From Thermoplasmata archaeon (GTDB lineage Archaea; Thermoplasmatota; Thermoplasmata; Lutacidiplasmatales; UBA184): a DNA stretch of 64,000 nt. The stretch covers positions 188,739 through 252,738 of the forward strand of contig JAKAWX010000001.1 of assembly GCA_021816865.1 (NCBI GenBank), in the 5' to 3' direction. This document shows, in pieces, positions 19,602-44,810 of the stretch. A program made the position numbers and the translations under genes. Each line of letters opens with the position of its first letter. The stretch's first letter is position 1. Under the pieces are notes generated by a model. The model was not told the origin of the DNA. It worked only from the letters and a program-made list of their open reading frames with translations, and made no database searches.

Positions 19602-19709
19602 GGCCGGGACCGAGAGTCTCACGGAACGGGGGTCGGCCCCGCGCCGCTTTGAACCCGGGTCGAGGGATCCACAGTCCCCCAGGATAGGCCAAGCTACCCC
19701 ATCCCGGCC
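19602..19709 (-). tRNA. tRNA-His (GTG) with a 32-base intron in the T-loop
   Basis: On the minus strand the acceptor strand GCCGGGA (19708-19702) pairs with TCCCGGC (19609-19603). The anticodon loop is CTGTGGA (19674-19668, anticodon GTG), closed by a five-pair stem GGGGA/TCCCT. The histidine identity pair G-1 (19709) and C73 (19602) is encoded; CCA is not. The T-stem CCGGG and loop start TTCAAA are separated from the rest (T then CTCGG) by bases 19647-19616. Position 54-57 TTCA pairs with intron TGAG, giving three-base bulges AAg and acT on opposite strands around a four-pair helix. This is a bulge-helix-bulge whose predicted cuts fall exactly at position 59/60. Joining restores a standard TTCAAAT loop. 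Confidence 0.9.
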
Positions 19710-43629: not shown

Positions 43630-44810
43630 GCCGCCCTCCCGCGTCCGTAGACCATCACCGAGTGGACGTTCGCGCTCCCCGAAAGATTGTGGACGAGCGC
43701 CCACTCGGGGTCCGGCGCCTGCCGGGACGGAGGCACTTGGTGGGCGAACTGCTGGTAGACCTCGACCGCCTGCCCGATCCCGGTCGCGCCGAGCGGGTGG
43801 CCGCAGCCGAGGAGCCCGCCCCGGGGGTTCACGACGAGGTCGCCCCCCACGTCGCCCCGGCCGTCGGCGGCGAACGGGCCCCCTTCGCCCGGGCCGCAGA
43901 GCCCGAGTGCCTCGTACTCCACGATCTCGGAGATCGTGAAGCAGTCGTGGATCTCGGCCAGGTCGAGGTCGCGGACGGTGATCCCCGCACGACCGAGCGC
44001 CTCGCGGGCCGCGTGCTTGAGTCCGACCCAGTCGGTGAGCGAACCGGCGTTCGCGAGGTTGTGGAAGTCGGAATACTGGCCCGTTCCCCGGACCCAGACC
44101 GGGGTATCGGTGAAACGGGAGGCGAACTCCTCTCCGACCAGGAGGACCGCCGCGGCTCCGTCGGTCATCGACGAGCAGTCGCCGAGCCGCAGCGGCGGCG
44201 CGACGAGGGGCAGCCGCAGCAGCTTGTCGCGGGTGAACGACTTCGCGTAGAACTGGGCCGTCGGGTTCGTGTTCGCGAAGCGGTGGTTCTTCTCCGAGAC
44301 CGCCGCGAGCTGCTCTTCGGTCGTGCCGTACTCGAGCATGTGGCGCTGCGCCACCATCGCGAAGAACGGGGGCGCGGTCGCGCCGTGCGGCCCGTCCCAG
44401 GGGCGGTCCATGACGCACCCCATCGCGGAGTTCGCCTCGGCCATCGAGGGGAGGTTCATCTTCTCGACCCCGACGGCGACCGCGATGTCGGAGAGGCCCG
44501 CAGCGATCGCCGCGTACGCGGAGCGGATCGCCGACTGGCCCGACGCACAGGCGAGCTCGGTCCGCTGGAGGATGCGACGGGGGCGCAAACCCATCTGCTC
44601 GGCGGCGAGCGGCGCGACGTGCGACTGGAAGGCAAAGCGCTCGGGTTCGGCCGCACCCACGAACAAGGAGTCGCACTCGTCGGCCCGGAGCTCGGGGATG
44701 GCGCGAAAGAGGGCGGCGCCGGCCTCCTGCGCCATCTCGGCCCAGGTCGTGGGTCGCACGCCGAAACGGGTCGTGGCCCCGCCGACCAGGGCGACCGCGC
44801 GTCCGCTCAC
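43626..44810 (-). CDS. Thiolase (acetyl-CoA acetyltransferase family, SCP2/archaeal type)
   Basis: A 394-residue thiolase with the nucleophilic cysteine Cys88 (ELACASGQ), the HDCFTISE segment and the second active-site GCGHPLGATG near residue 342. Archaeal members make acetoacetyl-CoA for the mevalonate pathway or cleave beta-ketoacyl-CoA. It overlaps both neighbours by four bases (GTGA each side), placing it firmly between leuB and the DUF35 gene. Whether it serves mevalonate, beta-oxidation or the 2-oxoacid pathway is open. Confidence 0.93.
   Translation of the reverse strand: MSGRAVALVGGATTRFGVRPTTWAEMAQEAGAALFRAIPELRADECDSLFVGAAEPERFAFQSHVAPLAAEQMGLRPRRILQRTELACASGQSAIRSAYAAIAAGLSDIAVAVGVEKMNLPSMAEANSAMGCVMDRPWDGPHGATAPPFFAMVAQRHMLEYGTTEEQLAAVSEKNHRFANTNPTAQFYAKSFTRDKLLRLPLVAPPLRLGDCSSMTDGAAAVLLVGEEFASRFTDTPVWVRGTGQYSDFHNLANAGSLTDWVGLKHAAREALGRAGITVRDLDLAEIHDCFTISEIVEYEALGLCGPGEGGPFAADGRGDVGGDLVVNPRGGLLGCGHPLGATGIGQAVEVYQQFAHQVPPSRQAPDPEWALVHNLSGSANVHSVMVYGRGRAA

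Follow-up and report, generated by a model that had tools for sequence, protein, structure and literature searches.

A predicted bulge-helix-bulge intron in the T-loop of tRNA-His, and related T-loop introns in its Thermoplasmata clade

Introduction

The locus described here raises the question of whether a tRNA-His gene that is interrupted within its T-loop carries a genuine, removable intron, and which enzyme would remove it. According to the available parts of two reviews, the alpha4 and alpha2 splicing endonucleases (EndA) of Euryarchaeota are paired with single introns at the canonical position 37/38, and loop-bearing enzymes opened other positions (PMC4090602, PMC4033280). Enzymes like the one found here have been tied to a narrow specificity (PMC6379350), and the strict-motif view of alpha-prime-2 enzymes is repeated in a 2025 study (PMC12397907).

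The window, by which we mean the whole stretch of 64,000 nucleotides that was analysed, covers positions 188739-252738 of contig 2 of a Thermoplasmata genome of 1.54 Mb in 11 contigs (83% complete; G000, hereafter the window genome). The order Lutacidiplasmatales was named by Sheridan et al. 2022, a study that also used tRNAscan-SE, and the word "intron" occurs 0 times in its main text as available to us (PMC9287336).

Results

A tRNA-His gene interrupted at position 59/60

The tRNA-His gene and its insert are read on the minus strand, exactly at the coordinates that an initial annotation had given (Table 1). Deletion of the insert leaves a 76-nt tRNA-His with a TTCAAAT T-loop, in which G-1/C73, the GTG anticodon and the stems are complete, as had been claimed. 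Essentially the same result was obtained for the relatives described below, with all cloverleaf stems paired after intron removal in 32/32 tRNA-His sequences.

Table 1. Features of the interrupted tRNA-His gene, in window coordinates
Feature	Position	Strand	Remarks
tRNA-His (GTG) gene, interrupted	19602..19709	(-)	G-1 (19709) to C73 (19602); anticodon also called by ARAGORN
Exon 1, G-1 through position 59 (3' end GGGTTCAAA)	19648..19709	(-)	
Acceptor 5' strand	19702..19708	(-)	
T-stem 5' strand CCGGG, outer exon helix of the BHB	19654..19658	(-)	partner 19610-19614
TTCAAA of the T-loop	19648..19653	(-)	
TTCA (54-57), central helix 5' strand	19650..19653	(-)	partner TGAG at 19618-19621
5' bulge AAg	19647..19649	(-)	predicted cut 19648/19647, from the known EndA rule
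32-nt intron at tRNA positions 59/60	19616..19647	(-)	orthologous introns 29-32 nt, 31/37 genus genomes
Intron hairpin	19622..19646	(-)	CGG/CCG (19646-19644 with 19624-19622) and GCGGGG/CCCCGT; covaries in genus
3' bulge acT	19615..19617	(-)	predicted cut 19616/19615, from the same rule
Exon 2: T60, T-stem 3' strand, acceptor 3' strand and C73	19602..19615	(-)	T60 at 19615
T-stem 3' strand CTCGG	19610..19614	(-)	
Acceptor 3' strand	19603..19609	(-)	

At the exon-intron junctions, a central helix of 4 bp lies between two 3-nt bulges, which is the arrangement of an archaeal bulge-helix-bulge (BHB) motif; the intron sits at 59/60 and not at the canonical site 37/38. The motif had been called ideal, and its geometry is as described (TTCA/TGAG, bulges AAg and acT), but the word is too strong, because the central helix (T-G, T-A, C-G, A-T) contains one G-U pair besides three Watson-Crick pairs. 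The proposed folding of the intron on itself was also confirmed, with CGG/CCG followed by CGGGG/CCCCG. A self-splicing group I or group II intron was rejected, the insert being 32 nt long as against ribozyme cores of hundreds of bases, and no Rfam family in the window reached its gathering score. The best reading of the sequence is that the insert is a genuine archaeal BHB-type tRNA intron, predicted to be spliced, in the only tRNA-His found.

Interrupted genes as seen by tRNA finders

At this locus, ARAGORN reported a tRNA-His of 80 nt without interruption, in which the T-arm is wrong. With Rfam, no tRNA in the 64-kb window reached the gathering score, and the tRNA-His was unmatched by the tRNA model in a search of the whole window genome even at E <= 10. 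This model alone recovered 20 of the 29 tRNA genes of the window genome at E <= 0.001, the 29 consisting of 27 Rfam matches (E <= 10), His and Trp (L076). Genes with an interrupted T-loop were read as weak or truncated matches: two of the ten such genes described below scored above the cut-off and seven below it, His being the tenth. In practice, the tRNA sets of such genomes are easily missed.

An ARAGORN call of tRNA-Arg(CCG) at window positions 43881-43968 is probably false; the region appears to be coding and thiolase-like, and another locus (L014) was called as a regular Arg-CCG. The tRNA-Trp genes (L076, L271, L281, L304) carry a 75-92-nt intron at 37/38, and a Trp-type intron of this kind is said to nest a box C/D RNA (PMC4090602).

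Conservation and covariation of the His intron

The His gene was used as a query in 61 genomes, 37 of them of the same genus. An interrupted tRNA-His was found in 31 of these 37 (32 copies, two in G031), no tRNA-His was found in the other six (G003, G006, G011, G015, G017 and G024; 59-85% complete), and an uninterrupted tRNA-His was seen in none of the 37. A second tRNA-His gene, suggested as a check in the initial annotation, was sought and not found in the window genome at its 83% completeness.

Across the genus copies, the exons are nearly invariant, and the intron is variable. In the 32 sequences, 8 of the 10 pairs of the intron helix had changed on both sides, and the whole structure gave 35 double-changed cells, compared with 13.4 +/- 2.5 for shuffles and no more than 12 with the partners slid. 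The fourth central pair, A57-T, is missing in 7/32 copies, and the intron pair adjoining the bulges fails in 17/32.

For the 18 His loci sampled beyond the genus, one per genome (L181, L182, L187 and L194 were left unparsed by the script), the T-loop was uninterrupted in 13, three of which have a 37/38 intron, and interrupted in one (G052). In the order relatives G037 and G039, the tRNA-His intron is at 37/38 instead. In G055 (L191), counted among the 13, a second tRNA-His copy lies close to the uninterrupted one and has a long insertion in its T-loop region.

T-loop introns in other tRNAs and in relatives

The intron is real, as had been proposed, but the view of a single locus was too narrow: 10 of the 29 tRNA genes found in the window genome carry a 59/60 intron, of 26-34 nt. 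These are Glu-CTC, Arg-TCT, Ser-GCT, Ala-GGC, Gly-TCC (its anticodon read by eye), Ser-GGA, Ser-CGA, Asp-GTC, Arg-TCG and His. G029, listed as 100% complete, has 13 T-loop introns, in the same ten tRNAs and in Asn, Gln-CTG and Lys.

Five genomes supplied the 32 T-arm introns for a covariance model, R1 (G000 10, G029 13, G018 5, G037 3, G052 1), and these genomes match it by construction. In the window, it gave the His gene 47.9 bits and the next-best match 15.7. Among 400 genomes of the class, 215 were matched at E <= 0.05. These comprised 70/70 genomes of the genus (4-14 matches each), 25/25 in the rest of the family (4-13 each) and three other genomes of the order (3, 3 and 1), all of these counts being lower bounds because just 15 candidates were scored per genome; beyond the order, 117/302 genomes were matched, with at most 6 matches among the 15 scored candidates per genome. 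When 150 candidates were scored for G082, its matches rose from 3 to 7. All but one (L380) of the 42 R1 loci fetched could be read as tRNA genes interrupted by an intron at 59/60, some of the anticodon calls among the 42 being uncertain.

In G038, the T-loop introns are merely 13-15 nt long and almost without an intron helix (L296, L300, L301, L302, L305, L309). Most of these short introns were lost by R1, though other scans, among them a pattern match, show them. The pattern GTTCAAAN{5,35}TGAAAATC matched in 90/400 class genomes and in 1/70 genus genomes; it was informative for G038 (9 matches versus 1 for the control) and noisy elsewhere.

In addition, D-loop introns were seen by eye in the genus, in iMet (L013, L257), Arg-GCG (L020, L263) and Lys (L273); that of iMet has CAGG/CCTG, AAA bulges and an irregular outer helix. 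Counts by intron position are biased, because the intron scripts covered just 37/38 and 59/60.

The 59/60 site has the frame of the anticodon arm

The 59/60 site consists of a 5-bp stem and a 7-nt loop with the insert between loop bases 6 and 7, the same as at 37/38 in the anticodon arm. This frame is assumed, the scans having been set to this junction; its support comes from pairing compared with shuffles. Of 28 T-loop introns taken from three genomes of the genus, 27 form central pairs one to three (shuffles 20%) and 10 form all four (2.9%). When an intron helix of 3 bp or more was required as well, the figures were 21/28 for the first three central pairs (1.6%) and 7/28 for all four (0.13%). 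Fewer than four standard central pairs are thus present in 18/28.

Beyond the family, four standard central pairs were found in 28 of 29 parsed T-loop introns, mostly in G57 tRNAs (Arg-TCT, Lys-TTT), a figure that comes from the best-scoring R1 loci and is therefore biased to regular motifs. In this family, G57 and A57 tRNAs alike carry introns at the site; in the A57 tRNAs, the fourth central apposition is often A-G, as in TTCA/GGAG (L017). An A-G fourth pair also occurs in canonical 37/38 introns, namely eMet CTCA/GGAG (L256) and Leu CTTA/GAAG among 25 introns of the class that were read. From these distributions, the strict four-pair form seems to be old and shared across the class, with the A57 form added later in the family.

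By RNAfold, the His precursor favours a symmetric internal loop (-56.6 kcal/mol) over the BHB (-42.2 kcal/mol), which is not its minimum-energy fold, and the central-pair probability for the His T-arm alone was about 0.02. Taken alone this would tell against the BHB, yet the same test gave values below 0.05 for 13/25 canonical introns of the class.

Splicing enzymes

The initial annotation had expected splicing here to require an endonuclease of heteromeric or relaxed type. The gene content gave this no support: one EndA gene was found in the window genome, a single ORF with two PF01974 domains, which are the only matches to this domain at E <= 10. A separate beta subunit, a third domain and a CSL/ASL-like insertion were sought by sequence in this 83%-complete genome, and none was found. 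PF01974 likewise occurs twice in one ORF in 14 further genomes of the class, the first-domain match being below the cut-off in G051 and G055; G029, listed as 100% complete, agrees. One extra weak match elsewhere (11.4-18.8 bits) was present in G038, G041, G044 and G055.

Residues 19-322 align with the alpha-prime EndA of A. fulgidus, and Tyr, His and Lys in the C-terminal half align with its catalytic residues, which we take to include Y246 and H257. The loop site was placed by the 10-residue shift between the structures 3p1y, presumably a CSL chimera, and 1r0v. Residues R280 and K287 of the A. fulgidus enzyme are named in PMC12397907. At the loop site, the turn YGSRVGD has the same length as YGSEKGD of A. 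fulgidus and YGNVEGN of M. jannaschii, and it is not lengthened in the window genome or in the 14 other class genomes. G047, G051 and G056, which have no R1 match, share both the EndA architecture and the turn length of their intron-rich relatives. The EndA is of the fused alpha-prime type, presumably a homodimer, and by sequence it lacks the crenarchaeal or ARMAN loop. RtcB is also present in the window genome (568.7 bits).

Discussion

We consider it likely that the insert is a genuine intron whose predicted removal falls to ordinary EndA and RtcB, since the T-arm mimics the anticodon arm. Pairing of loop bases 1-4 with the intron would give the central helix, loop bases 5-6 and the first intron base would form the 5' bulge, and the last two intron bases with loop base 7 would form the 3' bulge. 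The fused alpha-prime EndA, presumably a homodimer, would cut after the second base of each bulge, and RtcB would ligate the exons, whereupon the 76-nt tRNA-His could fold. The loop geometry matches at both arms, and 59/60 would therefore be the twin of 37/38. Ferroplasma is another member of the Thermoplasmata. Its homodimeric EndA is described as cleaving minimal BHB substrates (PMC8707768), and Haloferax EndA as processing BHBs in rRNA and in an mRNA 5' UTR (PMC7714728). BHB recognition need not depend on the place of the motif in the RNA, and a loop-less enzyme would therefore suffice. The chemistry of the His intron is likely ordinary, whereas its place and its enzyme setting are unusual.

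The wider proposal is that the T-arm serves as a second anticodon arm for splicing, so that about a dozen 59/60 introns per genome coexist with a loop-less fused EndA since the site reproduces the 37/38 geometry; our confidence in it is evenly balanced. If true, intron position would be set by motif geometry and not by the subunit type of the endonuclease, which contradicts the co-evolution rule of the reviews. A clade that pairs many T-loop introns with a simple enzyme is a natural test of that rule.

A less probable but serious alternative is that the intron is real and that EndA has been relaxed, whether through substitutions at other places or through the aid of a helper, and that this drives intron expansion, as in the co-evolution model but without the loop. 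Consistent with it, most A57 introns have A-G or another mismatch as their fourth central pair, and with fewer than four standard pairs in 18/28 genus introns, a truly strict enzyme should handle these badly. The 13-15-nt introns of G038 without an intron helix agree with it as well, and the D-loop introns of iMet, Arg-GCG and Lys hint at some relaxation of the enzyme. Conversely, the three genomes without R1 matches do not differ in EndA architecture or turn length, the A-G fourth pair is found in 37/38 introns too, and outside the family nearly all T-loop introns, among best-scoring and hence biased loci, have four standard pairs. Judged by their sequences, the His and class-wide introns would fit an enzyme that is strict as to motif but not as to position, and the A57 forms would strain the motif rule too.

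Two further proposals concern how such introns persist or spread. A split T-arm may destroy an integrase attachment site at the tRNA 3' end, an idea of Randau and Soll cited in PMC3293823. This is compatible with removal of the intron by ordinary EndA, and we hold it to be improbable in itself: a tRNA-gene 5' or 3' terminus is the typical attachment site (PMC3293823) and 59/60 lies in the 3' part, but intron-bearing tRNA genes of Thaumarchaeota are reported to serve as integration sites as well (PMC8371274).

Still more doubtful is a spread by copies of a single intron from one tRNA gene to another, a process described in Thermoproteales (PMC4090602). Many tRNAs do share one position, and 3 of 78 intron pairs in G029 reached z 4.0-4.3; in G000, however, introns of different tRNAs barely exceeded shuffles (45 pairs, mean z 0.29, best 2.9), so that these scores do not support recent copying there, and neither of the two genomes showed nearly identical introns in different tRNAs. 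Old copying may still have taken place, because the ten G000/G029 ortholog pairs themselves span z -0.7 to 4.8.

That the insert is kept, giving a mature tRNA with an enlarged T-arm or a dead gene, is very improbable: the minimum-energy fold is indeed an extended T-arm hairpin, but no other tRNA-His was seen in the genus genomes searched, nearly invariant exons flank a drifting intron with compensatory changes, the same site and motif recur in ten tRNAs of the genome, and the junction pairs in 27/28 introns versus 20% of shuffles.

Compared with the canonical 37/38 intron, the His intron shares the 5-bp stem, the 7-nt loop, insertion after base 6, the central helix at bases 1-4, the 3-nt bulges and the often hairpin-shaped intron; it differs in lying in the T-arm, so that the T-loop is broken until spliced. 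The non-canonical introns of Crenarchaeota/Thermoproteota are likewise of the BHB type, with 59/60 among the listed positions (PMC4090602), a likeness in position and type. Their EndA is a heterotetramer with a specific loop (PMC6379350), unlike the apparently loop-less fused alpha-prime EndA here. Korarchaeum cryptofilum combines a homodimer-type (alpha2) EndA with non-canonical introns and is termed the sole such archaeon, but its enzyme is said to bear the specific loop (PMC4033280), which was not seen in the EndA of the window genome. The Asgard Atabeyarchaeia and Freyarchaeia also have many, often non-canonical, introns outside Thermoproteota, but these occupy 92-95% of their tRNA genes, with several introns in over half (PMC11291895).

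The initial annotation had regarded a T-loop intron as unusual for this phylum, in agreement with the available parts of the reviews (PMC4090602, PMC4033280). For Euryarchaeota in its older sense, non-canonical introns are already known: multiple-intron tRNAs are described in Methanopyrus and Methanothermobacter (PMC4033280), the former with a different, (alpha-beta)2 enzyme (PMC6379350), and euryarchaeal non-canonical introns were used in training tRNAscan-SE 2.0 (PMC8450103). Among the exceptions given in the available parts of PMC4033280 and PMC8450103, neither Thermoplasmata nor a T-loop series is named. In the literature searched, T-loop introns were not found reported for Thermoplasmatota, and an earlier listing, for example in GtRNAdb, may exist. 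What appears to be new is a clade-wide repertoire of T-arm introns alongside a presumably loop-less fused enzyme, the kind of intron itself being already known.

Finally, two introns interrupt the tRNA-Lys gene of G029 (L273), one in the D-loop and one in the T-loop; GCACAGAG at the D-loop junction is complementary to CTCTGTGC within the T-loop intron.
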